In this document: positions 3,843 through 36,699 of the stretch, piece by piece | Numbering within the stretch: the stretch's first letter is position 1 | Layout of the letters: the number at the start of each line of letters is the position of its first letter | Origin: a virus | Length of the DNA stretch: 41,653 bases | Reading direction: 5' to 3' (one strand) | IMG/VR virus record: IMGVR_UViG_3300007351_000589 | Coordinates: 1 to 41,653 of that record | Translations under genes and position numbers: made by a program | Notes under the pieces: model-generated | What the model saw: only the letters and a program-made list of their open reading frames with translations | Told to the model about the DNA's origin: nothing | Database searches by the model: none

Positions 3843-4244
3843 CTACTTCCAAAGCAACCATTCTGCGAAAACAACTGCGAGAAAGCAGATTATCCATAAA
3901 ATTACAGGACCAGTGGCACCTTTGAACACGGCCCATTTTGATTCAATAACGATAGGCCCGTGAATCCCGCGGAATAATTGAACCACACAGAAAGCACAAA
4001 TCACTGCGATGGGAACACCAAACGAGATTAGAAACTGATTAGTAATTATAGTAAACCATGTACCTTGCTTAGTACCAATCCATATTACTGAAGAGTATAG
4101 ATAAACAAGCAGTAGTATTACGAAAGCAACTGCAAGGAGGCTAATGCAGAGTGCAAATGAACGTATTAGTTTCACCCAACGAGACATTTCACGCTCGTCA
4201 AGGGATGTCATCGCGACATTCTCAGATACAGGCTCAGCTGACAA
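3843..4244 (-). CDS. Small three-TM membrane protein, last gene of cargo operon
   Basis: The 133-residue product has a charged N-terminus (about 28 residues) followed by three hydrophobic segments near residues 29-52, 70-92 and 112-132, so it should be an inner-membrane protein. The start is TTG at 4244, chosen because AGAGGTG lies four bases upstream and no in-frame ATG precedes it. It lies 50 bases after the flavoprotein gene on the same strand and probably shares its transcript. The segment KGATGPVILW between TM2 and TM3 looks like a conserved motif I have a vague memory of from unannotated small membrane proteins, but I cannot name a family. In a prophage such a protein could act in superinfection exclusion or partner the flavoprotein; neither is shown by the sequence. 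Confidence 0.62.
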   Translation of the reverse strand: MSAEPVSENVAMTSLDEREMSRWVKLIRSFALCISLLAVAFVILLLVYLYSSVIWIGTKQGTWFTIITNQFLISFGVPIAVICAFCVVQLFRGIHGPIVIESKWAVFKGATGPVILWIICFLAVVFAEWLLWK

Positions 4245-4294
4245 GTATCACCTCTATGGTTATAATGTATTTACGCCCATTTCATAATTAACCT

Positions 4295-5338
4295 TTATTT
4301 GAGCAACCGATTTACAATCGGGTATATTATTCTTTTCCAGGGCACAGGAGCATAAAGCTGATTCGCTCTCTGTACTGAATCATCAGAGTTGGCCATACTT
4401 GAGATAACAAATTTAAATCCCCTTGCTTTAATAACATCATAAATAAATCTATTAACAATCGAGGTTCTGCAGTACGGGACAATCTCTTTTTTCACTAAAT
4501 CCCAATAATTTTTGTTTTCAATGATAGATTTTGCTGCCAAATAGCCTGAGTGGAAAGCCATTCGTAACCCAAAACCCCACATCGCATCCTGGAAACCGGC
4601 GGATTCACCTGTTCTTGGAATGCCAGAGTGCAAATCCTTGAATCGTGCTCCACAACCTCCAAATTTTATCGAATTTTTTATATCGAAATTGATTATTTTG
4701 CTGAATCTTTCAATTGCTATAGGTACAAATTTGTTTATTTCATGATTAGTATGTTTGGAAACAACGGCTATCGTTCCATGTCCATTCAATCCAAGCAAAT
4801 ATGCATATCCACCAGGTGCGACTTTGTCATCGAAAATTCCTAACGCAATTTTTTCAAGATTTGTATCAAAATTTATGCCAGTAGCAATTAAAAAAGGTTT
4901 CTCATATCCTGTTGCAATGATATTAGGATTTATTTCGCCTATGTCCGAATTAAAGTGAAACTGCACGCCCAAGTTTATTGCTTTATTATACAAATATGAA
5001 TCAATTGTATTTTCCATAGAACCTCGCCTAATCAAATAAAATCCTACTTTATCAGAATGCATATTGTATTTATTTAGCTTGTAATCATAATGAACACATT
5101 CTTTGAAAGGCTCATGATAGAAGGCGGTATCGATATTTATTTGCTTTAAAAAGACCAATGCGTCCTGCGGAGAGGTCCAGTTTTCTAAGCCTTGGAAATC
5201 TCCTCGCGCCTGAGATCCGATAGTAGAGCGCCTATCGAAGACTTCCACCTTAAAATTATTTAAGGCCAAGTTTATTGCTGCGGTCATTCCTGAGATGCCC
5301 GCCCCAGCTATTGAAATGGATCTATTTTTACCCGGCAT
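4295..5338 (-). CDS. FAD-dependent oxidoreductase, geranylgeranyl-reductase-like
   Basis: The 347-residue product starts with a Rossmann dinucleotide-binding fold: GAGISG at residues 12-17 and an acidic Asp35 at the end of the second strand, fitting FAD binding. A second flavin motif, GESAGF...GFGLRMAFHSGYLAA at about 244-269, has the form found in geranylgeranyl reductases and related halogenase/hydroxylase-type flavoproteins. Such reductases hydrogenate isoprenoid double bonds in lipids or quinones; the substrate here is unknown. The ATG at 5338 was preferred over 5359 because GAGGTGA precedes it and overlaps the stop of the upstream membrane-protein gene, implying translational coupling. 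It is AT-rich and reversed within the late module, hence imported cargo. Flavin binding is well supported; the reductase subclass is tentative. Confidence 0.75.
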   Translation of the reverse strand: MPGKNRSISIAGAGISGMTAAINLALNNFKVEVFDRRSTIGSQARGDFQGLENWTSPQDALVFLKQINIDTAFYHEPFKECVHYDYKLNKYNMHSDKVGFYLIRRGSMENTIDSYLYNKAINLGVQFHFNSDIGEINPNIIATGYEKPFLIATGINFDTNLEKIALGIFDDKVAPGGYAYLLGLNGHGTIAVVSKHTNHEINKFVPIAIERFSKIINFDIKNSIKFGGCGARFKDLHSGIPRTGESAGFQDAMWGFGLRMAFHSGYLAAKSIIENKNYWDLVKKEIVPYCRTSIVNRFIYDVIKARGFKFVISSMANSDDSVQRANQLYAPVPWKRIIYPIVNRLLK

Positions 5339-5345
5339 TTTCACC

Positions 5346-6422
5346 TCATTTTGCCACATTTAGAAGACTCTTAAAGAATTCAGTTATTTGTATCCATGAT
5401 TGAGCCAATATCGTCGGCAGTAAACTACTTAGTAGAGCCAATAAAATACTGATCGAAGGAAACCTGAAGGACCATTCAGAAATTGATAAAATCTCATTTC
5501 GCATATCGAGAAACTCTTTGACCTTTATCTGGATTCCATCTACATTTGGGTCATGAAGACTAATGCCGTTTACTTTGTCTTCGAGAGCGTCTGATATATT
5601 TTTGAGAATTACCTCTTTTTCTTGTACAAGAATTCTGTGAATCGGCATTTGTGTGATAAAGAAATAGTAAATAGCCAAGGCCGTGAAGACAAGAGCCATT
5701 ATATTTACACCTATATGGTTTCTAATTGGACTAACCTTAACACCCACAATGCATGTCAAGGAGGCTAAGATAATAATAATTGAAAATCCAATATACTCCA
5801 TTCCCACACGGCGAAGTCCCGCCATACGGTTTCTAAAAAGGCTTAATCGTAACTTTTTATTTTTTAAATTATTCGGAATAAGCATGGTACGGATGACGAC
5901 GTTAATTCCAGCGCCACCTATAAAAGCTGCTAATGCCCAGAGAAACATAAAGTAATATCTGCTAAAATTATTAGAGTACCAACCTGTAAATCCCTTCGAT
6001 TCAAAATAAACTAAAGCGAAGAGCGCGGGACATGTTATAGTACCCCAGATAATTAATTGCTTTGATGAGTAAATCTTCTTGAGCAGGGTTTCAAGCCATC
6101 GATCCGTTTCACTTGGTTTTTCGCTTATTTCACAAATCACTGCAAGTAACTCTTCAAATTTTTTAGCGCTCCATACAATCGCAATTGCAATGTGAGTAAG
6201 CCCAAATATGACCGCCATTGGCAAATAAATCCTATAGGAAACGTTGTCTGCTGGATTAGCTGTAAATAGAAATACCAAGAACAGCGTTCCCCCAAGAAAA
6301 ACCCATGACGCAAAATATGGAAGGAAGGGCTTTGTACCAGAAAATTTTGTGAAAAAATTTGAGAGATGGAACCTGCAAGAGTTCTCCTGATCCACCAAAC
6401 TCTCAATTCTTAGGCTCTCCAT
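5346..6422 (-). CDS. Polytopic membrane protein, first gene of cargo operon
   Basis: The 358-residue product has about seven hydrophobic segments (near residues 33-53, 65-84, 123-140, 156-178, 209-228, 236-257, 322-342). A soluble loop at about 260-320 is rich in charged residues and may be helical. I do not recognise the family. The start follows GGAGGAG at a good distance, and a consensus-like promoter lies about 40 bases upstream. The stop overlaps the ribosome-binding site of the flavoprotein gene, so both are likely made together and may form a membrane-associated complex. A role in altering the lysogen envelope or blocking superinfection would fit a moron but is inference only. Composition is AT-rich relative to the flanking portal and scaffold genes. 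Confidence 0.65.
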   Translation of the reverse strand: MESLRIESLVDQENSCRFHLSNFFTKFSGTKPFLPYFASWVFLGGTLFLVFLFTANPADNVSYRIYLPMAVIFGLTHIAIAIVWSAKKFEELLAVICEISEKPSETDRWLETLLKKIYSSKQLIIWGTITCPALFALVYFESKGFTGWYSNNFSRYYFMFLWALAAFIGGAGINVVIRTMLIPNNLKNKKLRLSLFRNRMAGLRRVGMEYIGFSIIIILASLTCIVGVKVSPIRNHIGVNIMALVFTALAIYYFFITQMPIHRILVQEKEVILKNISDALEDKVNGISLHDPNVDGIQIKVKEFLDMRNEILSISEWSFRFPSISILLALLSSLLPTILAQSWIQITEFFKSLLNVAK

Positions 6423-23376: not shown

Positions 23377-26241
23377 ATGTCGGAAACCCCCGAACAAAAA
23401 GCTCGCCGTGAGATTGACAGTAACCTGAAGGCTGCCGGCTGGTTGGTGCAGGATAGGGCTGACCTGGACTTGTCAGCCGGTCGTGGCATCGCTGTGCGCG
23501 AATTTCCGATGAAGTCCGGTTTTGGCTTTGCAGACTACCTGCTCTACCTGGACCGGAAAGCAATCGGCGCGGTTGAAGCCAAAGCCGAAGGCACACTTTC
23601 AGGCGTGGAAGCACAGTCGGCGAAATACTCTGCCGGTTTGCCCGACAATCTTCCTGCCCATCGCCGTCCCCTTCCTTTCCTTTTCGAGTCGAATGGCGCA
23701 AAAACCTGCTATACTAACGGTCTTGATCCCCTGCCACGCAGCCGCGAAATCTTCAACTTTCCTCAACCGCAAACCTTAGCAGACCTGATTGAACAGCCCC
23801 ACCAGCTTCGCACCCTTCTCAGAGAAATGCCTGAGCTAAATGAAATCGGTCTTTGGAAAGTACAGGAACGGGCGATTCTAAATCTTGAAAAATCCTTCTT
23901 CGAGGCTCGGCCCCGAGGACTCATTCAAATGGCTACCGGATCGGGGAAAACCTTCCTGGCAGTCAGTTCATGCTACCGTCTTCTCAGATATGCCAAAGCC
24001 CGCCGAATTCTATTCCTGGTGGACCGCACTGGGCTTGGCAAGCAAGCTGAAGGGGAATTCCGTGATTTCACCGTACCGATGGATGGCCGCAAATTCGATG
24101 AACACTATCCCTTGCAGCGACTTCAGACCAATTCTATAAATACCGCATCAAAGGTTGTCATCACCACGATTCAGCGGTTATACTCAATGCTGAAGGGCGA
24201 GCCTGAATTTGATCCGGGCAATGAAGAAGGCTCAGGCTTCGATACCGCCAAAACTTGGAATGGCCCTCCGCCTGATGTCGCGTATAATGCCGCGATACCG
24301 CCTGAGTTTTTCGATTTCATCATTGTGGACGAATGCCATCGCTCCATCTACGACCTCTGGAGCCAGGTTCTTCTATATTTCGACGCCTTTCTCATAGGAC
24401 TTACAGCCACTCCTTACAAACGCACCATTGGTTTCTTCAAGCAGAATTTGGTGATGGAGTACGGTCACGCTGAGGCCGTTGCGGATGGCGTTAATGTGGA
24501 CTTTGACGTGTATTTGATTAGGACGAAAATTACTGAGGGGGGATCGAACCTTCCATCTGGCATTTACGTTGAAAAACGGCATAAGTTAACACGCGCCGAG
24601 AGGCTGGAGCAGCTTGAGGACGATCTTACGTATACAGCCAACCAGCTTGATCGCGAAGTGGTGTCCGAGAGTCAGATCCGAACTGTCATCCAGCAATTCA
24701 GAGATAAAGTGCTCCCAGAGGCATTCCCAGACCGCAAGGAAGTCCCAAAGACACTTATCTTTGCAAAAGATGACTCCCACGCGGATGATATTGTCAGAAT
24801 TGTGCGCGAAGAGTTTGGTCAGGGCAATGACTTCTGCCAAAAGATCACCTATCGAACAGGCTTTACCCGAGTCAACAAAAAGGTTATCAATCCAGACGGG
24901 ACGGAATCGGAGATCACCGAGTGGGTGAAGACCTCTTCACTTACTCCGGATGAGATCCTGGCAAACTTCCGCACCAGCTACTTCCCCAGGATTGCCGTCA
25001 CGGTAGATATGATTTCGACGGGGACAGATGTCAAAGCCATTGAATGCGTGATGTTCCTGCGCAACGTGAAATCTGCCGGGCTATTTGAGCAGATGAAAGG
25101 GCGCGGCGTTCGTGTGATTCACACTGATAAACTGCGTGAAGTTACACCCAGCGCAGCGGCGAAGGAACGTTTCATCGTCGTAGATGCCGTTGGCGTATGC
25201 GAGCAGGACAAAACCGAATCCCAGACACTGAACCGGCAACCTACCGTTCCGCTCGAGAAGCTGCTTGAGTACGTGGCACAAGGCGGCACTGACTCCGATG
25301 CGTTAACTACACTGGCTGGACGCCTGGCGCGGCTTCAACGTGATTTCTCACCTGAGCAACTGGCCGAGCTGAAAGAGCTCGCGGAAGGCAAATCACTCTC
25401 GGACTTGGCTCACAATCTATTAAATGCCTGCGACCCGGATAAGCAGCTTGAAGCGGCCAAGGAAGAATTCTCCACGCTTCAACCAACCGAGGTGCAGGTT
25501 GCCGAAGCGACAGAACGACTCACGGACATAGCGGTAAGGCCTTTTTTCAAACCTGCGCTGCGGCGGCGCATCCTGGAAATAAAGACTCAGAATGAACAGA
25601 CGATGGACCGGCATAGTATTGATGAAGTGCTTTATGCCGGATTTGATGCGGCCGCTGTTGAGAAAGCGCAGGCAAAGGTGCAGGACTTTCGGGCTTGGAT
25701 GGAGCAACATCGCGAGGAGCTCACTGCACTCCAGGTTATTTATAGCGGTACCAAGCCTCTGAATATCTCTTTGAAAGACCTTCGTCAACTGCGGGAGGCC
25801 TTGCTTGGTCCACCTCTGGCAGTATCGCCTAAGCAGCTATGGCGTGCCTTCCAAGCCGTCGATGGCGGGAATGTAGCAGTAGCGGTTACCGATAATTCAG
25901 CAGTAAAGGTGCGTGGCGGCGAACACTTGGCAGACCTGGTAACACTTGTCCGCCATGCCCTGACACCAGACGAGAATCTTGTTCCCTATGCAGATAATGT
26001 ACGTCAGCGGTACGCCGCATGGCGACAGGATATGGGACAGCAAGGCCGGCACTTCACTCCAGAGCAGAGTGAGTGGCTGGATCGCATGGCTGAACACATT
26101 GCCACCAGCCTATTTATCGAAGCTGGGGATTTTGAAGATGGATGGTTCGGGCAGCAAGGGAGTCTGGGTAAGGCATCGGCACTCTTCGGCTTAGAATTGC
26201 CAAAGCTAATTGAAGAAATGAATAAAAGGTTGGCCGCATGA
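23377..26241 (+). CDS. hsdR: Type I restriction enzyme, endonuclease/translocase subunit
   Basis: The 954-residue product has the full HsdR layout. The N-terminal nuclease shows Asp53 and the Glu67-Ala-Lys69 pair of a PD-(D/E)XK site. The SF2 motor has Walker A ATGSGKT (about 186-192), DECH (318-321), the LTATP motif about 25 residues later, and QMKGRGVR as helicase motif VI. A helical C-terminal region for assembly follows. HsdR pulls DNA using ATP and cuts far from the recognition site when bound to HsdM and HsdS at unmethylated targets. No frameshift is visible and all key residues are present, so it should be active. It overlaps hsdS by ATGA. It is first in the operon, an R-S-M order. Confidence 0.95.
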   Translation: MSETPEQKARREIDSNLKAAGWLVQDRADLDLSAGRGIAVREFPMKSGFGFADYLLYLDRKAIGAVEAKAEGTLSGVEAQSAKYSAGLPDNLPAHRRPLPFLFESNGAKTCYTNGLDPLPRSREIFNFPQPQTLADLIEQPHQLRTLLREMPELNEIGLWKVQERAILNLEKSFFEARPRGLIQMATGSGKTFLAVSSCYRLLRYAKARRILFLVDRTGLGKQAEGEFRDFTVPMDGRKFDEHYPLQRLQTNSINTASKVVITTIQRLYSMLKGEPEFDPGNEEGSGFDTAKTWNGPPPDVAYNAAIPPEFFDFIIVDECHRSIYDLWSQVLLYFDAFLIGLTATPYKRTIGFFKQNLVMEYGHAEAVADGVNVDFDVYLIRTKITEGGSNLPSGIYVEKRHKLTRAERLEQLEDDLTYTANQLDREVVSESQIRTVIQQFRDKVLPEAFPDRKEVPKTLIFAKDDSHADDIVRIVREEFGQGNDFCQKITYRTGFTRVNKKVINPDGTESEITEWVKTSSLTPDEILANFRTSYFPRIAVTVDMISTGTDVKAIECVMFLRNVKSAGLFEQMKGRGVRVIHTDKLREVTPSAAAKERFIVVDAVGVCEQDKTESQTLNRQPTVPLEKLLEYVAQGGTDSDALTTLAGRLARLQRDFSPEQLAELKELAEGKSLSDLAHNLLNACDPDKQLEAAKEEFSTLQPTEVQVAEATERLTDIAVRPFFKPALRRRILEIKTQNEQTMDRHSIDEVLYAGFDAAAVEKAQAKVQDFRAWMEQHREELTALQVIYSGTKPLNISLKDLRQLREALLGPPLAVSPKQLWRAFQAVDGGNVAVAVTDNSAVKVRGGEHLADLVTLVRHALTPDENLVPYADNVRQRYAAWRQDMGQQGRHFTPEQSEWLDRMAEHIATSLFIEAGDFEDGWFGQQGSLGKASALFGLELPKLIEEMNKRLAA

Positions 26242-27839
26242 GAGAGAAATTAAATTTTGAACATTATCCACTCCCAAGTGAAGCAGTAGCAGATGGTTGG
26301 GATTTAGTATGCTTGAGGGACATTGCAAAGCTAATTGCTTCAGGATTTGCCAGTGGACAGCATAATGATCAAGGTATAGGTGTTCCACATATACGGCCAA
26401 TGAATATCAATCGTGATGGCAATCTTGATCTTACAACACTCAAATACGTTGAAGGTAATGTCCCACGCGAACTCTCTGAAGGCGACGTTTTGTTTAATAA
26501 CACCAACAGCCCTGACCTTATAGGAAAATCGACTTCAATTCAAACAAATGTAAGACTTGGATATTCTAACCATATGACGCGTCTTCGGCTCGAAGATGGA
26601 TTACATCCCCAATTCTTTGCCCGACAATTACATTTTTTATGGATGTGTGGATATTTTCGTCATCGCTGTACAAATCACGTGAACCAAGCAAGCATCTCGA
26701 CCGATCCACTTGCAGACACGGTGCCTATTCACATCCCGCCAAGTGCTGAGCAGACAAGGATCATTGAAACACTGGATGAACTTACAACTGATCTCGATGC
26801 TGGTGTAGCGGCTTTACAAAGGGTGCAAGCCAGACTTAAAATTTACCGGGCGGCAGTCTTAAAAGCAGCGGTAGATGGGAGTCTGACTGAAGACTGGCGA
26901 CAGCAGCATCCCCACGTGGAGCCTGCCTCTGAACTGCTGAAAAGAATCCTGGTTGAACGCCGCAAGCGATGGGAAGAAGAGCAACTTCAAAAATTTACCA
27001 GGACAGGGAAAAATCCACCGAAGAATTGGCAGTCAAGATACAAGGAGCCAAAAGATCCTGACTTCTCGTGTATATGGGATACTCCCGAATCTTGGACGTG
27101 GGTAGGAGTCGAGGCGCTTGCAGTTGGTACATCCAATGCAATAAAGGCGGGACCCTTCGGCAGCTCACTCAAGAAGGAGCATTATGTAGCTGATGGTTAT
27201 AAGATATATGGGCAGGAGCAAGTAATTCGCAACGACCCACATTTCGGCGATTACTACATAAGCTCAGAGCATTATCAGAGACTTGCAAGTTGCTCTGTTA
27301 AAGCGGGTGATCTTCTTATCAGTCTTGTTGGTACGACTGGAAAAGTACTCATCCTTCCTACCAATCTTGAGCCCGGAATCATCAACCCACGATTGATCAA
27401 AATCAGTGTAAATCCTGAGTTTGTCTATGGAAAATATCTAAAGCTATTTATTGAGAGTCCACAAGCGCGAGCATTTATTAAAGAAAAGGCTCATGGCGAG
27501 ACAATGGATGTGCTAAACATGACCATTTTGAAGCAATTTCCATTGCCCTTGCCACCTTTTGAAGAGCAATTAGCAATAATCGAGACAGTTGAAGATCAAC
27601 TATCGATTATCGACCATATAGCCGCCGATGTCAATCAGAAACTAAAAGAAACATTCACCTTACGCCAAGCCATCCTCCAAAAAGCCTTTACAGGCCAACT
27701 TGTGTCCCAAGATCCGGACGACGAACCGGCTTCAGAGCTACTGAAACGTATCGCGACCGAGCGCGAAGCGTGCTTACGCGCTAAAGGCAACCATAAGACT
27801 GAAAGAATCACTAAAAGGCGAACTCGAAGAAAGAGTTAG
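26238..27839 (+). CDS. hsdS: Type I restriction enzyme, specificity subunit
   Basis: The 533-residue product has two target-recognition domains. The first spans about residues 15-180 and the second about 275-445. Each is followed by a conserved helical segment (EQTRIIETLDELTTDLDAG and EEQLAIIETVEDQLSIID) that forms the spacer coiled coils. AAVLKAAVDGSLT and AILQKAFTGQLV are the paired repeats typical of HsdS. It reads the two halves of a bipartite DNA target and binds two HsdM and up to two HsdR. The ATGA overlap with hsdR and the 15-base gap to hsdM imply one transcript. TRD sequences vary widely, so the recognised DNA site cannot be predicted here. The gene is intact and AT-richer than hsdR. 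Confidence 0.93.
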   Translation: MREKLNFEHYPLPSEAVADGWDLVCLRDIAKLIASGFASGQHNDQGIGVPHIRPMNINRDGNLDLTTLKYVEGNVPRELSEGDVLFNNTNSPDLIGKSTSIQTNVRLGYSNHMTRLRLEDGLHPQFFARQLHFLWMCGYFRHRCTNHVNQASISTDPLADTVPIHIPPSAEQTRIIETLDELTTDLDAGVAALQRVQARLKIYRAAVLKAAVDGSLTEDWRQQHPHVEPASELLKRILVERRKRWEEEQLQKFTRTGKNPPKNWQSRYKEPKDPDFSCIWDTPESWTWVGVEALAVGTSNAIKAGPFGSSLKKEHYVADGYKIYGQEQVIRNDPHFGDYYISSEHYQRLASCSVKAGDLLISLVGTTGKVLILPTNLEPGIINPRLIKISVNPEFVYGKYLKLFIESPQARAFIKEKAHGETMDVLNMTILKQFPLPLPPFEEQLAIIETVEDQLSIIDHIAADVNQKLKETFTLRQAILQKAFTGQLVSQDPDDEPASELLKRIATEREACLRAKGNHKTERITKRRTRRKS

Positions 27840-27854
27840 CAGGACCACTCCTTC

Positions 27855-29369
27855 ATGGAAACTTCACAGATTGGCAACAGGGCATGGAGCTTCGCCCAGG
27901 TCCTTCGTGACGATGGGTTAAGCTACGCCCAATATATCGAACAACTCACGATGCTGCTCTTCCTGAAAATGGCAGATCAGCTTACGGAGTCTCCTTATAA
28001 CCGTCCAGCGATCATCCCTTCCGAACTGGATTGGAAATCTCTTCGCAAGCTGGATGGTGTAGACCTGGAGAATCATTATCGGCACATCCTGGAAGAGCTG
28101 GGGAAGAAGGATGGGATGCTGGGCGTAATTTATCGCCGTGCACGTTGTGAGATCAGCAATCCGGCGATGTTGAAGCAGCTCATCGTGAATTTGATTGATA
28201 AAGAGAATTGGCTCAGCTTATCAGTGGATGTCAAGGGGACCATTTACGAGGAGTTGCTGGCGCGTTCTGCAGCGGAATCTACCAAGGGAGCCGGACAGTA
28301 CTTCACGACCCGAGCCGTGATACAAGCCATTATTGATGTAATGAGACCCCAACCTTCGGATCGCATATGCGATCCGGCCGCAGGTACCGGCGGATTCCTA
28401 ACCAGAGCATATCAATTTGTGCTTGATAATTATGAACGTGATCTTGACAGGGATGAAAAGAAAGCTGTCAAGGAAGACCTTGTTGAAGCGATGGAGCTGA
28501 CACCTTTGGCAGGCCGCTTGTGCGCCATGAACCTATACCTTCATGGGATTGGTGGCGATAAGGTGGTGGTACAAGCTGGGCATGACAGTCTGGCGGCTAC
28601 CTGGAGTAAAGAATATTCAATGGTGTTAACCAATCCCCCATTTGGGAAAAAGAGTAGCCTGACGTTTGTGAACGAAGAAGGCGATGCTAAACAGGAAGAC
28701 CGGGTTATTGTGCGCGAAGACTTCTGGACCAGTACCAGCAACAAGCAGATGAACTTCGTGCAGCATATCTATACCTTACTCAAAATCGGCGGCAGAGCCG
28801 CAGTCGTTGTGCCGGACAATGTACTCTTCGAGGGTGGTGCAGGTGAGACCATACGCCGCAATCTGCTTCAGAAGTGTAACGTTCACACTTTACTCCGCCT
28901 CCCGACAGGAATCTGGTACAAACCAGGTGTCAAGGCCAATGTGCTTTTCTTCGAGAAGCGCGAAGGCCGGCCAGAGCCTTGGACAACCAAGCTCTGGGTT
29001 TATGATCTGCGCACAAACAAGCATTTTACGTTGAAGCAGGACCCGATCAAGCGGGAAGACTTCGATGAGTTCGTGGCCTGCTACAGCGCAGGCAACATCT
29101 ATGAGCGAAAGGAAACCTGGAGCGAGGAAAATCCAGACGGCCGCTGGCGCTGCTACGACTACGAAGAGATCCTGAAGCGCGACAAGCTCAGTCTCGATCT
29201 ATTCTGGATCAAGGACCAGAGCCTGACCGACACCGATTCCCTTCCACACCCGAGCATCCTGGCCCAGGAGATCGCGGATGATCTGGAAACGGCGCTGGAG
29301 CAGTTTACGAAGATAGCGGCGAGATTAAATATTACACACGCTCTTCCCGAGCAAGGCAGAGAACAATGA
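27855..29369 (+). CDS. hsdM: Type I restriction enzyme, adenine methyltransferase subunit
   Basis: The 504-residue product has the N-terminal helical HsdM domain (AQYIEQLTMLLFLKMAD), then GQYFT before the SAM-binding motif DPAAGTGGF (173-181), and the catalytic motif IV NPPF at 260-263. It methylates adenine at N6 in the target read by HsdS and protects host and prophage DNA. Length is normal and motifs are complete. It overlaps the next gene by ATGA, so the flavoprotein gene is translationally coupled to the RM system. This link is what ties the four downstream genes to hsdRSM. Confidence 0.95.
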   Translation: METSQIGNRAWSFAQVLRDDGLSYAQYIEQLTMLLFLKMADQLTESPYNRPAIIPSELDWKSLRKLDGVDLENHYRHILEELGKKDGMLGVIYRRARCEISNPAMLKQLIVNLIDKENWLSLSVDVKGTIYEELLARSAAESTKGAGQYFTTRAVIQAIIDVMRPQPSDRICDPAAGTGGFLTRAYQFVLDNYERDLDRDEKKAVKEDLVEAMELTPLAGRLCAMNLYLHGIGGDKVVVQAGHDSLAATWSKEYSMVLTNPPFGKKSSLTFVNEEGDAKQEDRVIVREDFWTSTSNKQMNFVQHIYTLLKIGGRAAVVVPDNVLFEGGAGETIRRNLLQKCNVHTLLRLPTGIWYKPGVKANVLFFEKREGRPEPWTTKLWVYDLRTNKHFTLKQDPIKREDFDEFVACYSAGNIYERKETWSEENPDGRWRCYDYEEILKRDKLSLDLFWIKDQSLTDTDSLPHPSILAQEIADDLETALEQFTKIAARLNITHALPEQGREQ

Positions 29370-30583
29370 AAAGCTCTACAGGTACGTCCGCTGGGATATC
29401 CGTTGCAATTATTGGTGGAGGTTTAGCAGGTATTCTCTGCGCGATTAGGCTCGCACGATCAAAAGTTCATTGCCTACTTATTGATCACTCGCTGCCAAAT
29501 GCGGAGGGAATGCTGGGGGGATTCGCCAGATTCTCCGGATCAAAATTTTCAGTTCCACCTGCGGGGTTAGGTTTAACAAAATTATCTGGATCAATCGATA
29601 AATTAAGGGAAATATCAGATGAAATTCTCGGTATAATGGGCATTACAGGCCAGGCACTTCCACTGGTTACTCGAATGGAAGCTGTTCCTATCTCGGGCTC
29701 TTTGGTTCATCGCCCGTACGACTGTATTGTTCTTTCTGAGCAAGAGATGTGCGATCTGCTTAATCGTATAACAACCTTCTCGGTATCAGTAGCGATCAGC
29801 CGATCTTTATGTACCAAAATATCACAAGACGGGCGTCTCTGGAATTTAGTGCTACGTGAGAGCGATGGCACTTTAAAGCAGATTCAGGTAGAAACTGTTT
29901 TCTTTGCGGGTGGAAGAAACGGCGCTAAAGTGCTGTTGGACACTGGATTAGCTCCGATGAATGGGAAGGGCATTGATCTTGGGATACGGATTGAATTTCC
30001 CGACTGGAAGTCCATCGAGCCACTAAAGACCTTAGGACAGGATGCAAAGATACTCTTTGAAAATTGTCGTACTTTTTGTGTAAATTGTCCAGGCGAAATA
30101 TATTGGCATGCGTATGAGGATATTGAGATAGCGGGTGGTATATCAACAGCCGATTCTAAGAGCCTATCTGCGAATTTTGGATTGCTATACCGACTCTATA
30201 GCAAGGAAGGGCAATTAGACAAAATAAGACAATCCATCCGAGACGCACAAACTTCGGGTGTTTACAGACGGACTTATAATATTATTGGCAAGGACTTGGG
30301 CAAAGCATATCCAGCGATAGAACGGTTGTACGGTGGAAATGTAGCAGAGATGCTCAGCAAATTCAAAATTGAGCTTGCAGAGAGTGGTCTTATCAGATGC
30401 GAAGCTCTACACTTAGCCCATTTGCCTCTCTTAGACTGGCATTGGCCTGTCTTTGGGGCAGGTAGCAGCTTTCAAACTTCACTCCCGAATCTTTTCGTAA
30501 TGGGGGATGCTGCTGGCTATGCGAGAGGTCTATTACAGGCAGCAGTGTCCGGCTGGTTAGCAGCGGAGGAGTATCTCAGATGA
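29366..30583 (+). CDS. FAD-dependent oxidoreductase linked to the RM cassette
   Basis: The 405-residue product has an N-terminal Rossmann motif GGGLAG (17-22) with Asp40 ending the second strand, and a C-terminal flavin motif MGDAAGYARGLLQAAVSG (379-396). Together they define a two-dinucleotide-domain-like or COG2509-like flavoprotein. A Cys-containing loop (CRTFCVNCPG, about residues 230-240) holds three cysteines that might be redox-active or bind metal. The substrate is unknown. It overlaps hsdM by ATGA and the HD gene by ATGA, so it belongs to the same operon. Flavoproteins are not part of standard type I RM systems. Possible roles are redox sensing, base or nucleotide modification, or tRNA/lipid modification; none is shown. 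Confidence 0.78.
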   Translation: MKSSTGTSAGISVAIIGGGLAGILCAIRLARSKVHCLLIDHSLPNAEGMLGGFARFSGSKFSVPPAGLGLTKLSGSIDKLREISDEILGIMGITGQALPLVTRMEAVPISGSLVHRPYDCIVLSEQEMCDLLNRITTFSVSVAISRSLCTKISQDGRLWNLVLRESDGTLKQIQVETVFFAGGRNGAKVLLDTGLAPMNGKGIDLGIRIEFPDWKSIEPLKTLGQDAKILFENCRTFCVNCPGEIYWHAYEDIEIAGGISTADSKSLSANFGLLYRLYSKEGQLDKIRQSIRDAQTSGVYRRTYNIIGKDLGKAYPAIERLYGGNVAEMLSKFKIELAESGLIRCEALHLAHLPLLDWHWPVFGAGSSFQTSLPNLFVMGDAAGYARGLLQAAVSGWLAAEEYLR

Positions 30584-31905
30584 ATATACAAAAATATAGA
30601 GTTTGGGACCCATTATACGGACTGATGGATTTCTCTCCGTTAGAGGCACAGTTCATCTTTTCGCCTGAAGTCCAACGGTTAAGGCATGTTCGTCTTTGTA
30701 ACATTGATTCACTACTTCTGCCAGGAGCCGCCAATGTATCTCGTTTCGAGCATGCGTTGGGAGTACTTCGTTTAGCAAATGAGTGGTTATCTGTACACCA
30801 TATCCATTCTGATAAAGCGAATGACCTGCGTATTGCTGCCATAGTCCATGATATCCAATCTGGTCCCTTCGGTCATTCAATACAGTATATTCTCGAAGAT
30901 AATAAGCTTGGCGCAGATTTTGGTCATGAGGACCTGGCAGAGGCTCAGGCACATAGTTATCATCAAGATATACCAGCCAATGAATCATATGTAGGGGTAA
31001 AATTTCGAGTCAGAGCGATGTGTGGTGAGCGCTGGCCTATAATATCAGATATGATCAAAGGCGAAAGTCAATTAGGGTCATTGATTTCAGGCACTTTAGA
31101 TTTAGACAATCTGGATAATGTTATCAGGCTGGCTTTTCATACTGGCCTTTGTAGTAGAATTGAGGCAGAGCAAGCCATTGAGCTAGCAAAAGTAATTGCG
31201 CCAACGCCCCAGGGAATTGCTATTCCATCTCAGAAGGTATACCTTATCGAGCAATGGCAGAAGGTACGAAAAAATCTTTATGAATTCTTACTCTATGATT
31301 GGGCTGAATTCTCAGCGAAGGCGATGCTTACCAGAGCTTTTGAAGATGCAGTAGGCCAAAAATTCGTTGGGACTGATAACTGGCGGATGACTGATGATGA
31401 ATTAATCCAATACTTCTTAGATAAAGCGATAGGCGAAACACAAAGTGTTAAAGAAATGGTGCGACGCCTGCGCTTAGGAGAATTATATACACCGATCCTG
31501 ATCGGTTCATCCGCAGCGGTTGAAAATTACAAGGTGCTGAACCAAATCAAGACTAAGCGAAATATTGAGAAAGAAATTCTAAGATCCGTCTACAAGGGAC
31601 GTGGGGGTACACAAGTACTTATTCACTTCATCCTCGATATCAATAAGATCGAACGTGCTGTGGAAGTCACGCTAAAGGACACGTTAAAACAAATAGAAGT
31701 CGGGCAGAATTCAAGGTCTCTTTTAATAGGTGTATTTACATCAGCGGCACCTACACCAAGGGAACGTGAAATGCTACAGGTAAAAGCTTTGCAAGTGCTT
31801 GCGAATAGTGGATGTCCAGAGATTCGTTTTATACCAGATCCTCTGGCAAAACCGAAAACCCCTGATAATCAAATGAAACTTTTCAATGGACCCGAAACTA
31901 CTTAG
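30580..31905 (+). CDS. HD-domain phosphohydrolase, SAMHD1/dGTPase-like
   Basis: The 441-residue product begins as SAMHD1-type dNTP hydrolases do: DPLYGLMDFSPLE, then RLRHVRL, RFEHALGV (His58), VHDIQSGPFGHS (His90-Asp91, His99) and a later DLDNLDNVIR (Asp174/176). These supply the H...HD...D metal site. Family members (COG1078) remove triphosphate from dNTPs and some restrict phages by lowering dNTP pools. The C-terminal 200 residues are family-specific and not assigned. It overlaps the previous gene by ATGA and the methyltransferase gene by 20 bases. The substrate may be a dNTP, a modified nucleotide or a signal nucleotide. All visible metal ligands are intact, so activity is likely. Confidence 0.85.
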   Translation: MNIQKYRVWDPLYGLMDFSPLEAQFIFSPEVQRLRHVRLCNIDSLLLPGAANVSRFEHALGVLRLANEWLSVHHIHSDKANDLRIAAIVHDIQSGPFGHSIQYILEDNKLGADFGHEDLAEAQAHSYHQDIPANESYVGVKFRVRAMCGERWPIISDMIKGESQLGSLISGTLDLDNLDNVIRLAFHTGLCSRIEAEQAIELAKVIAPTPQGIAIPSQKVYLIEQWQKVRKNLYEFLLYDWAEFSAKAMLTRAFEDAVGQKFVGTDNWRMTDDELIQYFLDKAIGETQSVKEMVRRLRLGELYTPILIGSSAAVENYKVLNQIKTKRNIEKEILRSVYKGRGGTQVLIHFILDINKIERAVEVTLKDTLKQIEVGQNSRSLLIGVFTSAAPTPREREMLQVKALQVLANSGCPEIRFIPDPLAKPKTPDNQMKLFNGPETT

Positions 31906-33157
31906 ACAATTGCAGGCCGTTGATTGGGATTTCCCGCGCTGGAACAAGGAGACAACATCAGCGATTCACTGGTATCCTGGGACATTCCCATCGCAGCTAC
32001 CGGCAGCATTGATTGAGGCTCTCTCCCAGCCAAATACCCTTGTCTTTGATCCATACGCGGGGATAGGGACTACCGGGCTGGAAGCCCTTCGTCTCGGAAG
32101 GAATTCTTGGTGCGTAGATCAAAATCCTGTAGGTGTTCTGGCTTCTTACGTAATGTCTGGATTGGTTCTATACAAAGCAATCTCATTACCCCATATGAGT
32201 CAAGATCCTCTTACAATCCTTGAAGAAGCAATTTTTGGAACCAAAAATAAAGTTGGCTTGCTGTCCTATGGCAAGAACGATGATGCAGAAATCTTCTCCA
32301 AAATATTGTCCCCGCAGCCCGATGAAATGTTATCTACAATGATGTCAAGAATGCCGACTAATTGGGAAATGCTTTGCAAATGGTATGAAAAAGATACTCT
32401 TCAACAAATAAGAACTACCGCTGAAGATCTTCAGATGTTAGTGTTGCCAGCTTTCGTGAAACTCATTGGAATGCTTATGATCTCATCGGCACTTCGACCA
32501 TCGTGCTCCCAAACAATTAGTTGGGGGCATGTAGCTGATAAAGTTCTACCCAAAACCTATGAAAAGAAGGACTTTATCGGTGTTTGTAAAAAGTGGATCT
32601 ATAGAATCCGAGCAATTCTTGCAAGGGCAACAGTGGTACCACGTGATATTAATACTTCCAGCGTATGCGCCTCGGTGTCCATGCATGATTGGCAATCATC
32701 CGATAGGCTTATAAGACCTTCTCGAGGAAAGAGTGAACTGTTAATTACATCTCCGCCTTATGGTGGTGCGATTGATTATGTCAGAGCACAAAGACTCTCT
32801 TTATACTATTTAGGATTCAGCGAAGATGATATAACGCAGCTTGGGGAACACGAGATTGGTTCCAGACGAAAGCGGTTTAGTCCACAATCTTTGACTATGT
32901 GGGCATCTGAATTGTCCAACTGCATTCTGGATCAGCTCAAATTCCTCACGAATGATGGCTATCTTGTAATAATTTTGCCTCACAAGGATCATGGTCGAGA
33001 AGAAGGTGCGCAAAAGTTAAACAAAGTACTTAATGATATAAATTGGCAATGTGTATTCAAAGCGGATCGATCAATCCATCAGCTTAGGACAAGGCAAAAA
33101 CAGACATGGACTAGAATTAAGCGGGAAACAATTGAAATATTTGAATATGGAGGATAA
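31886..33157 (+). CDS. DNA methyltransferase (TSPPY-type, probable N4-cytosine or N6-adenine)
   Basis: The 423-residue product has HWYPGTFPSQLPAALI (about 28-43) leading into the SAM motif FDPYAGIGTT (54-63), and the catalytic motif TSPPYGG at 288-294 followed by DYVRAQRLS. TSPPY is commonest in N4-cytosine methyltransferases. Between them lies a region of about 220 residues that could hold the target-recognition part. It is not an HsdM: motif order and spacing differ and it lacks the HsdM helical domain. It starts 20 bases inside the HD gene without a clear Shine-Dalgarno site, so translation is coupled. The kinase-fusion gene follows after four bases. It may mark DNA so that a partner system spares self, or may methylate independently. 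Confidence 0.8.
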   Translation: MDPKLLRQLQAVDWDFPRWNKETTSAIHWYPGTFPSQLPAALIEALSQPNTLVFDPYAGIGTTGLEALRLGRNSWCVDQNPVGVLASYVMSGLVLYKAISLPHMSQDPLTILEEAIFGTKNKVGLLSYGKNDDAEIFSKILSPQPDEMLSTMMSRMPTNWEMLCKWYEKDTLQQIRTTAEDLQMLVLPAFVKLIGMLMISSALRPSCSQTISWGHVADKVLPKTYEKKDFIGVCKKWIYRIRAILARATVVPRDINTSSVCASVSMHDWQSSDRLIRPSRGKSELLITSPPYGGAIDYVRAQRLSLYYLGFSEDDITQLGEHEIGSRRKRFSPQSLTMWASELSNCILDQLKFLTNDGYLVIILPHKDHGREEGAQKLNKVLNDINWQCVFKADRSIHQLRTRQKQTWTRIKRETIEIFEYGG

Positions 33158-33161
33158 TGCA

Positions 33162-34472
33162 ATGAGAACGATACTTGTACTCGTGGGGGTTAGAGGCTCA
33201 GGAAAATCCACTCTTATACGACGCCTCCCATCCATACATGGAGTAGTCTATCTTCAGCCTTCGACAACTCGCATTAAGAGGCCTGATGACGATGATCAAT
33301 ACGACCATGTTGAGAAGGGTAATTGGAACTCATCAGATTACGCTTGGGCGATTCAATTAAAAGATGAAAACTATGGAATACGAACATCAGAAATAAAAGC
33401 TCTCGAACATAGCAGGCTTGGCGTAACTGTTTTTCATCCAGGACATATAGAAGTATTGAAAGAATTTGATAAATCGACTGATATTGAGATCATCACAGTC
33501 GGCTTAGATACAGTTCTGACATACAAAATATTGCGCCAAAGGATCGGTGATAACGGTGATCGTGATGAAGGCGAGAGCACATTTGAAGATCAGCTTAAAG
33601 TTGTCAACGAATGTGATATTATTTTAAAAGGGGATAAGGAACAAATATACAAGGCATTCAATTCTGTAGTAGAATTACTGTCTTCCCGTGGTGTACTTGT
33701 GAAAGATTCGATCACCAATCTAATAAACGCCGGAACCCTTCTTGAGAACACTGTCAATGAGAATATTAAACCTGCAAGCTATGATCTTCGTGTCGGAAGT
33801 ACTGCATGGTGTAAAGGGGAAACAATAAAAATTGATGCTGATGGAAAAATCGCGATTCCACCTTACTCTTATATTATTATTAAAGCAGAAGAACAGGCAC
33901 ATTTACCTAACTTCATCATAGCCCATTATGATATTAGGGTTTCATTATTCGTAAAAGGAGTGATTCTATCAAATGGACCCCAAGTTGATCCGGGCTTTCA
34001 TGGCAGTTTATTATGTATGCTATTCAACGGGAGTGATACAAAAATTGGTTTGAGGCGAGGAGAACATTTTGCGACTATAGAATTTTTTATAACCACAAAA
34101 AAGACTCTAGGATACAGAGAACATCATCAGGGTAAGAAAAGTCTTGAAGATTACATGGAGAGTACAATTGCGTTTGGTCCTGGTGGCACAATTAGCGATA
34201 AGTTCGATGATTTGAAGAAAACCTGGGAAACTTACAGAAATTCAATAATCATTATTGGTATTACTCTTATTATTGCATTAGTTTCAGCGCCTGCTTTTCT
34301 CGTATGGTGGGGATATGATATGGCTAAACAAAATGAAATAATGAGAGCTCAAATTATGAGGGATTCAAAGGAAGTACATGATCTAATAATTGAAGAACGC
34401 GCATTAAGGGATTCTCTACATTCTGCAATTAGTGATTCTACCACTTCCAATGATGTAAATAAACAGAATTAA
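33162..34472 (+). CDS. Guanylate-kinase-like + dUTPase/dCTP-deaminase-like + TM fusion protein
   Basis: The 436-residue product has three parts. Residues 1-175 resemble guanylate kinase: P-loop GVRGSGKST, then QPSTTRIKRP like the GMP-binding TTR.RRP motif. Residues of about 190-325 resemble the trimeric dUTPase/dCTP deaminase fold: NIKPASYDLRVGS, then VDPGFHGS (275-282) and LRRGEHFATIEFF. A single TM helix (about 362-385) and a 50-residue polar tail follow. In dCTP deaminases a Glu is expected four to five residues after the PGF.G motif; aligning by eye to E. coli Dcd places Met286 there. The domain may therefore bind but not deaminate nucleotides. GGAGG precedes ATG 33162, which I preferred to in-frame starts at 33051 and 33147. 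It ends the operon. I know of no described protein with this order. Confidence 0.78.
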   Translation: MRTILVLVGVRGSGKSTLIRRLPSIHGVVYLQPSTTRIKRPDDDDQYDHVEKGNWNSSDYAWAIQLKDENYGIRTSEIKALEHSRLGVTVFHPGHIEVLKEFDKSTDIEIITVGLDTVLTYKILRQRIGDNGDRDEGESTFEDQLKVVNECDIILKGDKEQIYKAFNSVVELLSSRGVLVKDSITNLINAGTLLENTVNENIKPASYDLRVGSTAWCKGETIKIDADGKIAIPPYSYIIIKAEEQAHLPNFIIAHYDIRVSLFVKGVILSNGPQVDPGFHGSLLCMLFNGSDTKIGLRRGEHFATIEFFITTKKTLGYREHHQGKKSLEDYMESTIAFGPGGTISDKFDDLKKTWETYRNSIIIIGITLIIALVSAPAFLVWWGYDMAKQNEIMRAQIMRDSKEVHDLIIEERALRDSLHSAISDSTTSNDVNKQN

Positions 34473-35967: not shown

Positions 35968-36699
35968 TCAGGGGAGGTAGAGCTCACGGATTTGAAGATG
36001 CTTGGGAAAGCGACCGATCTCGCGGACGCATTCGCCCTTCAAGTCCAGTTGCTTGACCCAGACGGCAATGTCATTTTCCCGGCACTGATCCACCAAGTTT
36101 TCCACCCATTCAATTTTACAAGGGCGACGATGGGGACCGGACTCACAGCCGATGACCACGCGATCAATAAATTCCCTGTGAAACCCAAGCCAATTGTCCA
36201 GCGTGATCGGGCCAAGCATGGGTTCCAGGGACAACCAGAGAAAGGGGAAATTATCCGTTTCAAAGGCCCAGGCGAAATAATCATTCAGGTTTTGCTCGAG
36301 CTCTGCCTGGTTACATCCGGATATCCCAAGCTCGAGATTATGCGGCAGTTCAAAGGGTAGAAAGCGAGACAGGTTCTCTGGGCGTTTCGTACAGAAAATA
36401 AAGGTGTGTTGCTGGGCTTTATAGATGGTATCCATGATGCGGTCAATGGCTTCCAGGGAGACCCAAGGATTCAGAATATCAGCGGTATTGCAGACGAAGA
36501 TGCGGCGCGGGCGTTTCCATTCCAGCGGCTTCGCCAGGATTTCCGGGCGGAACTCGAGCTTGCTGTGGTCGTGGTCATGGAAACGGCCGGCCAGGTTTTC
36601 TGCCCAGCAGTTCTGACAGCCGGGGGAGGCTTTGGGGCCGGGACAGCCGACGATAGGGTTCCAGGTTTCATCCCAGTATTGTCCGGAGGATTTCTTCAT
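35968..36699 (-). CDS. Gp37/Gp68-like (DUF5131) phage protein, radical-SAM-related
   Basis: The 243-residue product follows the Gp37/Gp68 family pattern: YWDETWNPIVGC near the start, a three-cysteine cluster Cys19-x8-Cys28-x2-Cys31, RIFVCNTADIL, FIFCTKRPENL, LGISG, LSLEPMLGPI, VIGCESGP and WVKQLD. The cysteine set and TIM-barrel-like order of strands suggest a radical-SAM-like enzyme carrying an iron-sulfur cluster. Its substrate is unknown for the family. It starts one base after the helicase-loader stop, so the two are co-translated. Being in the replication operon, it may act on DNA, tRNA or host components early in infection. The family call is firm; the chemistry is not. Confidence 0.82.
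   Translation of the reverse strand: MKKSSGQYWDETWNPIVGCPGPKASPGCQNCWAENLAGRFHDHDHSKLEFRPEILAKPLEWKRPRRIFVCNTADILNPWVSLEAIDRIMDTIYKAQQHTFIFCTKRPENLSRFLPFELPHNLELGISGCNQAELEQNLNDYFAWAFETDNFPFLWLSLEPMLGPITLDNWLGFHREFIDRVVIGCESGPHRRPCKIEWVENLVDQCRENDIAVWVKQLDLKGECVREIGRFPKHLQIRELYLP

Follow-up and report, generated by a model that had tools for sequence, protein, structure and literature searches.

A fusion of guanylate kinase-like and Dcd-like domains with a predicted membrane helix, encoded in a four-gene operon shared by bacteria and archaea: a candidate nucleotide sensor

Introduction

Clover consists of the HD-domain dNTPase CloA and the nucleotidyltransferase CloB, and the cited sections of its description present an HD effector gated by dTTP and a second nucleotide, such that one nucleotide switches it on and another restrains it (PMC12265719). 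The locus described here resembles it in having an HD dNTPase-like protein whose partner might report on the state of the nucleotides, but no methyltransferase, FAD enzyme or protein of the guanylate kinase-Dcd-transmembrane type (GK-Dcd-TM) is described for Clover in those sections (PMC12265719). In Kongming, dITP binds KomB and NAD is depleted; a deoxynucleotide is thus sensed as an immune cue here too, whereas the dITP signal and the NAD depletion differ, and the cited sections describe no component in common with our locus (PMC12948488). AvcD was considered as a close relative and rejected, as its paper makes no mention of the features sought there (PMC10511110).

At the level of single domains, the archaeal dUTPases P45 (9LN0, 9LN3) and that of Thermococcus pacificus (8Y1W, with dUMP) share the Dcd-like fold of our protein (Z about 22 over about 150 residues), a methionine where Dcd has its catalytic glutamate, and the Asp of VDPG. 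Unlike it, they are stand-alone proteins of about 156 aa, keep the motif RSSLAREG, and have neither a guanylate kinase domain nor a TM helix. The Dcd and DCD-DUT enzymes of E. coli (1XS1), B. halodurans (4XJC) and M. jannaschii (1OGH) have the same fold and the ASYDLR-like and VDPGF motifs, but our protein lacks their catalytic Glu as well as two residues of their RSSxxR motif, the Ser and the final Arg. With guanylate kinases it shares the fold, the P-loop, TTRxxR and YG, but not the guanine-contact Glu and Asp. Tal et al. reportedly worked on dCTP deaminases and dGTPases in defense.

We analyzed a 41,653-nucleotide stretch of viral DNA, hereafter the window. It encodes a GK-Dcd-TM fusion protein at the end of a four-gene operon that, as a whole, appears to be new in kind, each of its domain families being already known. 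Against PADLOC-DB 2.0.0 the fusion protein gave no strong match (best E 0.0079, over its first 30 residues only) and the HD protein no match at E up to 1. We did not find the operon or the fusion described in the open-access literature.

Architecture of the fusion protein

A GGAGG lies a few bases before the ATG start of the gene, and the coordinates in Table 1 extend to the end of its stop codon. The initial annotation, made by reading the DNA, had proposed a kinase joined to a Dcd/dUTPase fold and followed by a single TM helix and a polar tail. Pfam and NCBIfam matches, a family profile, an AF2 model and hydropathy all agree with this architecture.

Table 1. Coordinates of the fusion gene, its parts and the neighboring genes
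Feature	Position	Strand	Description
Type I RM genes hsdR, hsdS, hsdM	23377..29369	+	Abut the operon; not in the conserved operon
FAD-dependent oxidoreductase, operon gene 1	29366..30583	+	405 aa; Pfam Pyr_redox_2 and others; conserved neighbor
SAMHD1-like HD-domain phosphohydrolase, operon gene 2	30580..31905	+	441 aa; Pfam HD
DNA N4/N6 methyltransferase, operon gene 3	31886..33157	+	423 aa; Pfam N6_N4_Mtase
GK-Dcd-TM fusion gene	33162..34472	+	436 aa; guanylate kinase-like, Dcd/dUTPase-like, TM
Guanylate kinase-like domain	33162..33686	+	Residues 1-175; P-loop GVRGSGKST and QPSTTRIKR present, guanine-contact residues gone
Dcd/dUTPase-fold domain	33690..34166	+	Residues 177-335
Met286 codon	34017..34019	+	Dcd catalytic-Glu position
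Predicted TM helix (hydrophobic segment)	34245..34301	+	About residues 362-380; within model helix 340-426
Polar helical C-terminal tail	34302..34469	+	About residues 381-436
Small pre-FAD protein (cluster c3)			L038, L040, L041, L042, L044, L045, L047, L048, L050, L054

The search against Dcd families suggested in that annotation recovers the fold: Pfam DCD, with a cut-off of 27 bits, scores 50.1 over residues 179-309, but TIGR02274 (dCTP_deam), whose equivalog cut-off is 92.8 bits, reaches no more than 64.3. For the window sequence alone the guanylate kinase match is weak (E 0.15 with Pfam, 0.004 with NCBIfam). A profile of 22 family rows matches solved guanylate kinases (best 1z6g, 6e-18, profile positions 6-172) and dUTPase/Dcd chains (9ln0, 1e-32, positions 194-335). 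The AF2 monomer model, built from a 21-row alignment, has a mean pLDDT of 86.8. By VIA-align, its residues 177-335 come closest, among dUTPases and Dcds, to 9ln0 (Z 22.4, rmsd 1.9 Å over 153 residues), with Z 17-21 for the Dcds, and its first 176 residues or so match guanylate kinases at Z of about 19.

In the model a single long helix takes in the hydrophobic segment (399-417 in the numbering of the 473-aa ORF). Such a C-terminal segment was detected by hydropathy in 21 of the 22 family members, window included, with a cut-off that also flags some stretches of FAD proteins and methyltransferases and so is no proof of a TM helix. The hydrophobicity of the helix is observed, and from it we infer a membrane location for the protein. 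Most archaeal and clostridial relatives stop shortly past this segment, unlike the window protein with its polar tail. Because the domain arrangement is conserved across phyla and across bacteria and archaea, it is not chance.

Lost catalytic residues and a kept pocket in the Dcd-like domain

It had been read by eye that Met286 stands in the place of the catalytic glutamate, which we take to be Glu138 of E. coli Dcd. This is confirmed by alignment with the Glu of the Bacillus halodurans DCD-DUT 4xjc and of two ordinary plasmid Dcds (a control, L001, falls one column out at the Glu in this residue-column comparison). A glutamate elsewhere in the pocket was also sought, and the alignments offer no family-specific replacement: the conserved Glu244 of the family is found in ordinary Dcds and in P45 as well.

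We compared 22 Dcd-like domains, a set that omits the Rhizobium etli kinase (no Dcd part) and includes L039, which is split between frames and is not among the rows of family alignments A9 and A10. The Glu column holds Leu (17) or Met (5), and the motif-2 Ser column Val (19), Asn (2) or Ile (1). At the last Arg of RSSxxR we found Cys (14), Phe (3), Val (2), Ile, Leu and His (one each); the first Arg is retained in 1/22 only, the window, whose motif reads R-V-S-L-F-V. The first Ser and the last Arg are therefore replaced in 22/22 relatives, while Asp276, the catalytic Asp of motif 3 in trimeric dUTPases, is present in every one of them. The surrounding ILSNGPQ(V/I)DPG is nearly fixed and is the best-conserved stretch of the whole protein; ASYDLR-like and VDPGF motifs are retained, as recorded initially.

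The initial annotation equated the lost glutamate with lost catalysis. Taken alone, this does not follow, because the closest solved relatives, 9ln0 and 8y1w, named as archaeal dUTPases in their entries, also have Met there; Met for Glu rules out dCTP deamination but not dUTPase chemistry. The Ser and Arg replacements throughout the family do argue against catalysis. Since the catalytic positions are replaced everywhere while Asp276 and its loop are strictly kept, the pattern looks like that of a binding site that has been repurposed. An ordinary Dcd was ruled out, as Glu, Ser and Arg are all absent.

The guanylate kinase-like domain

The P-loop Gly and Lys are present in all 20 rows with residues there, and its Ser/Thr in 19 of these; TTR and the second Arg of TTRxxR are retained in 19-20 of about 20 rows. 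The column at yeast Glu69 holds W, V, I, T, Y or L in the 20 rows with residues, that at Asp98 holds V, I, P or L in 20 rows, and that at Asp100 has Asp in two rows; we take Glu69 and Asp98/100 to be the guanine-contact residues, in role and in number. With TIGR03263 (guanylate kinase) the window protein scores 16.9 bits and its relative in L042 61.2, against a cut-off of 160.45.

In eight of the 22 rows, the window and seven others, a proline directly precedes (S/T/V)T(T/S)R. The profile alignment puts a proline of the yeast entry 4f4j at an apparently equivalent place, presumably the one substitution by which the enzyme becomes a MAGUK-like domain that binds proteins. Because the guanine contacts are lost and the proline resembles that of 4f4j, the domain is unlikely to be an ordinary GMP kinase, a candidate that we rejected on the absent contacts, and a switch or binding role is plausible. 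The fusion protein has the folds of Dcd, dUTPase and guanylate kinase but, judged by defining residues that we looked for and did not find, is probably a functional member of none.

A four-gene operon

The initial annotation was silent on the conserved FAD, HD and methyltransferase genes that lie 5' of the fusion gene. In the window the FAD gene starts 4 bases before the end of the hsdM stop, FAD and HD overlap by 4 bases, HD and methyltransferase by 20, and a gap of 4 separates the methyltransferase from the fusion gene. The best PDB match of the FAD family profile is 3nlc (VP0956; 7e-17), which we take to be a COG2509-type protein.

The HD profile matches bacterial HD phosphohydrolases (9mr6, 2q14, 2o6i) and SAMHD1 chains. 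We aligned the HD and methyltransferase proteins of 25 chosen loci each (A11, A12), a subset of those with both genes. H58, H90, D91, H99, D174, D176, D179, N180 and R183 of the HD protein are fixed in 25/25, as are the H...HD...D metal ligands. The His-Glu dyad is present in the window; over the alignment its His is found in 22/25, Pro taking its place in the other three, and its Glu in 20/25, five proteins being without it. Since dyad residues are missing in some, not every HD protein need be an active dNTPase. The methyltransferase profile matches N4C/N6A methylases. Its motif I (DPxxGxG) precedes motif IV (TSPPY), an order permuted relative to the beta class; the motifs occur in 24-25 of 25 proteins, with DP, G.G, TSP, Y and DY fixed in 25/25.

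Distribution and co-inheritance

Scanning genomes with the HD alignment gave 45 loci, a sample biased by its origin in two short patterns. The HD gene adjoins a methyltransferase match in 38 of the 45 (weak in one, L071) and has a Dcd-like match of the GK-Dcd family nearby in at least 20; in L038 and L054 the FAD and HD genes are followed by the contig edge. Hosts include Verrucomicrobiota, Pseudomonas (L032 is a Pseudomonas cedrina locus), Litchfieldella, Bradyrhizobium, Rhodoblastus, Treponema, Dyadobacter and Clostridia among the bacteria, as well as ANME-1, Bathycorpusculum, Thermoplasmatota and Heimdallarchaeota. The genes frequently overlap or lie a few bases apart, and their order is mostly constant; the FAD gene comes last in L036, and the fusion gene is upstream on the opposite strand in L035.

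Rhizobium etli plasmid pA repeats the gene order of the window, with identities of 37-42%; there the kinase stands alone with no Dcd part, and the FAD gene is apparently split between frames. In G022, a genome of the window's family, the operon is present and its fourth protein has a different N-terminus with no P-loop, followed by Dcd-TM. From these two cases, neither the kinase half nor the Dcd half is strictly needed. Just upstream of the operon on plasmid pA (L003:426-2261) lies a gene for a 611-aa protein with a nucleoside-phosphorylase domain.

Pairwise distances of the HD, methyltransferase and GK-Dcd proteins, compared over 19 loci (L035, L039 and L046 left out), correlate with r of 0.97, 0.85 and 0.87, values reached in 0/2000 permutations; the parts therefore travel together. 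We distinguished two branches. In the first (the window, L032-L035 and G022) the FAD protein is without a Cys cluster and there is no small upstream gene; L036 groups with it except that its FAD protein has the cysteines. In the second (archaea, Clostridia, Dyadobacter and others) the FAD protein has a Cys-rich stretch, and in ten loci the FAD gene is preceded by one for a protein of 138-182 aa with an N-terminal hydrophobic segment (cluster c3), of which the one representative tried has no Pfam match.

Single-protein scans of viral and genome contigs for relatives of the fusion protein returned ordinary phage Dcds or nothing, and scans of viral contigs with two-row (A1, A3, A8) and three-row (A5, A4) alignments gave no match. 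By tblastn against phage records, the whole protein had no match and its Dcd part found Dcd/dUTPase genes. Profile searches of genomes found the methyltransferase in 1/297 (phylum) and 7/340 (class, five of them with no other operon gene), the HD protein in 1/242 (order), and the GK-Dcd protein in 4/395 (phylum, three being Dcd-TM only) and 2/389 (class); few candidates were scored per genome, so that some members may have been missed. Because members are so few, the window's own genome among them, the operon looks rare among the relatives of that genome.

Genomic context

The window is phage-like: PHROGs, tried on ten proteins, identifies a major head protein and RusA, with a repressor as a weak match. 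The contig measures 45,360 bases. By Pfam and PADLOC, hsdM encodes a typical type I methyltransferase; hsdR and hsdS were named from their sequence and from homologs beside the HD-methyltransferase locus L068. We also ran PADLOC on 20 proteins from 13 loci, picked out of 130 neighboring ORFs for size and closeness. The matches were MzaA in L032 (3e-75), RdrA (1e-29) and RdrB (4e-28) of RADAR in L036, DpdF of the 7-deazaguanine DNA system in L044 (2926-5025; 3e-121) a few kb from the operon, a type I restriction endonuclease in L050 (2e-21), an LmuB-like SMC protein in L042 (1e-19), and in L037 a reverse transcriptase that is possibly just that of an intron. This set, assembled without a control set, would be typical of defense islands.

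Three further stretches of the window, all on the minus strand, drew our attention. Genes at 3843-6422 run opposite to the phage late region around them and include one for a second FAD-type protein (4295-5359), flanked on each side by a protein that looks hydrophobic by eye. Also in the late region, on the opposite strand, 1209-1871 encodes a 220-aa protein with no Pfam match. At 35971-36699 we found a DUF5131 protein (Pfam E 1.1e-46; phrog_2045).

HD-methyltransferase pairs with other partners

Elsewhere the HD and methyltransferase genes keep other company, as named by Pfam from one representative per partner cluster. The pair occurs with a QueC/QueH-like protein and a protein of 2-3 TM segments (L051, L053, L055, L059), with an AIR-synthase-like protein (L052, L061, L063, L066), or with a B12-radical SAM protein and a DUF4062-NACHT protein (L056, L058, L060, L062). 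In L063 and L066 HD and methyltransferase are fused in one protein of 820-823 aa. Four other loci (L064, L065, L068, L069) have a protein with 0-2 predicted TM segments and, where the contig reaches, a carbamoyltransferase-ASCH protein, and L067 has this carbamoyltransferase with a different 3-TM protein. A membrane protein is thus common but not universal among these loci. Among the recurrent neighbors that were named, none is a Pol-beta nucleotidyltransferase, the Clover-type partner.

Possible function of the system

We tentatively favor, at somewhat less than an even chance, the view that the GK-Dcd-TM protein is the membrane-anchored nucleotide-sensing or regulatory subunit of a mobile four-gene system, probably anti-phage. 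The Dcd-like domain, as a trimer, would bind a pyrimidine deoxynucleotide (dCTP, dUTP or dTTP) and leave it unprocessed. The guanylate kinase-like domain, whose P-loop is observed, would bind a nucleoside phosphate and close, or would act as a protein-binding switch, and the C-terminal helix would tether the complex to the membrane. If infection then shifted the dNTP pool, the complex would be altered and would license the HD protein, which has the metal-binding residues, to hydrolyze dNTPs. In the least certain step, the methyltransferase and the FAD enzyme might mark host DNA as self, or else tune the trigger or add a signal.

This sensor view develops the sensor or anchor role first suggested for the protein, which the lost catalytic residues, the kept pocket and the TM helix still favor; the missing glutamate by itself would not suffice. 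Gating of the HD protein is preferred because of the Clover precedent and because the fourth gene combines two apparently non-catalytic nucleotide folds with an anchor. An anti-phage sensor is further supported by the recurrence of the operon, the correlated distances, the TM segment (21/22) and HD ligands (25/25), the defense neighbors (MzaA, RdrA/RdrB, DpdF, type I restriction endonuclease, LmuB-like protein and type I RM), and Clover and Kongming as far as the cited sections describe them. It is weakened in turn by the nearest solved relatives being named dUTPases, by TM-anchored, Glu-less Dcd-like proteins outside the operon, by the dispensability of either half (R. etli, G022), by the HD proteins that have lost dyad residues, and by the biosynthetic-looking partners, which suit modification of DNA or nucleotides no less than they suit sensing. 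Should it be correct, it would represent a new kind of nucleotide-pool surveillance in prokaryotic immunity, in which pyrimidine- and purine-metabolism enzymes would have become a sensor at the membrane, linked with both a SAMHD1-like hydrolase and a DNA methyltransferase.

The main rival, which we consider somewhat unlikely, is hypermodification: the methyltransferase and FAD enzyme would build a modified base for DNA or a nucleotide, the guanylate kinase-like domain would phosphorylate the unusual nucleotide, the HD protein would deplete the dNTP that competes with it, and binding or processing of the modified nucleotide would fall to the Dcd-like domain. Phages with 2-aminoadenine have an HD enzyme, DatZ, that removes dATP, which speaks for such a role, as do the QueC/QueH-like, AIR-synthase, B12-radical SAM and carbamoyltransferase-ASCH partners, the HD-methyltransferase fusions and the DpdF-like protein near L044. 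It is however not easy to see why a nucleotide enzyme should have a TM anchor, both the guanine-contact and the Dcd catalytic residues are lost, and the radical SAM loci carry a DUF4062-NACHT protein that is more like defense.

It is rather improbable that the protein is a P45-type dUTPase, active and tethered to the membrane, in which the Dcd-like domain still hydrolyzes dUTP and the remainder positions it. The closest solved structures (9ln0, 9ln3, 8y1w), two of which, 9ln0 and 8y1w, share the Met, and the invariant Asp276 would fit this, but P45 and the T. pacificus enzyme have RSSLAREG where the family has replaced the Ser and the later Arg in all members, and the loop before DPG differs. 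An ordinary phage gene of nucleotide metabolism whose active site has decayed and which has no special role, suggested by the phage-like window and by the ordinary Dcd/dUTPases found in virus records, is very improbable, since in bacteria and archaea alike the gene is conserved and co-inherited, has lost the same residues and retains the same loop.

Returning to the sensor view, a broader proposal is possible but doubtful: the operon could belong to a trans-domain, mobile HD-methyltransferase immune superfamily with swappable tailoring enzymes and membrane-anchored nucleotide-binding proteins, the sensor here being a fusion of two pseudo-enzymes (guanylate kinase-like and Dcd-like) that would read the deoxynucleotide pool from the membrane and gate a SAMHD1-like dNTPase.

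Dcd-like membrane proteins outside the operon

The Glu-less Dcd-like proteins with TM segments outside the operon come from four loci (L081, L082, L083, L017). Two are stand-alone proteins of 218 aa (L082:7064-7720, L083:6723-7379) that have a hydrophobic stretch at the C-terminus; by eye, Gly takes the place of the Glu, and both keep the RS and the Arg of the motif. That of L082 exceeds the TIGR02274 cut-off for dCTP deaminase, a warning that current models give this name to Glu-less proteins. In L081 (2841-5349) an archaeal-type adenylosuccinate synthetase, a Dcd-like-TM protein (275 aa) and a small kinase-like protein stand in a row; PurZ was rejected for the synthetase, which NCBIfam assigns to the archaeal short type. 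Lastly, the Priestia plasmid pB1.1 (L017:4983-5771) encodes a 262-aa Dcd-like protein that has no Glu and, by eye, two C-terminal TM segments.
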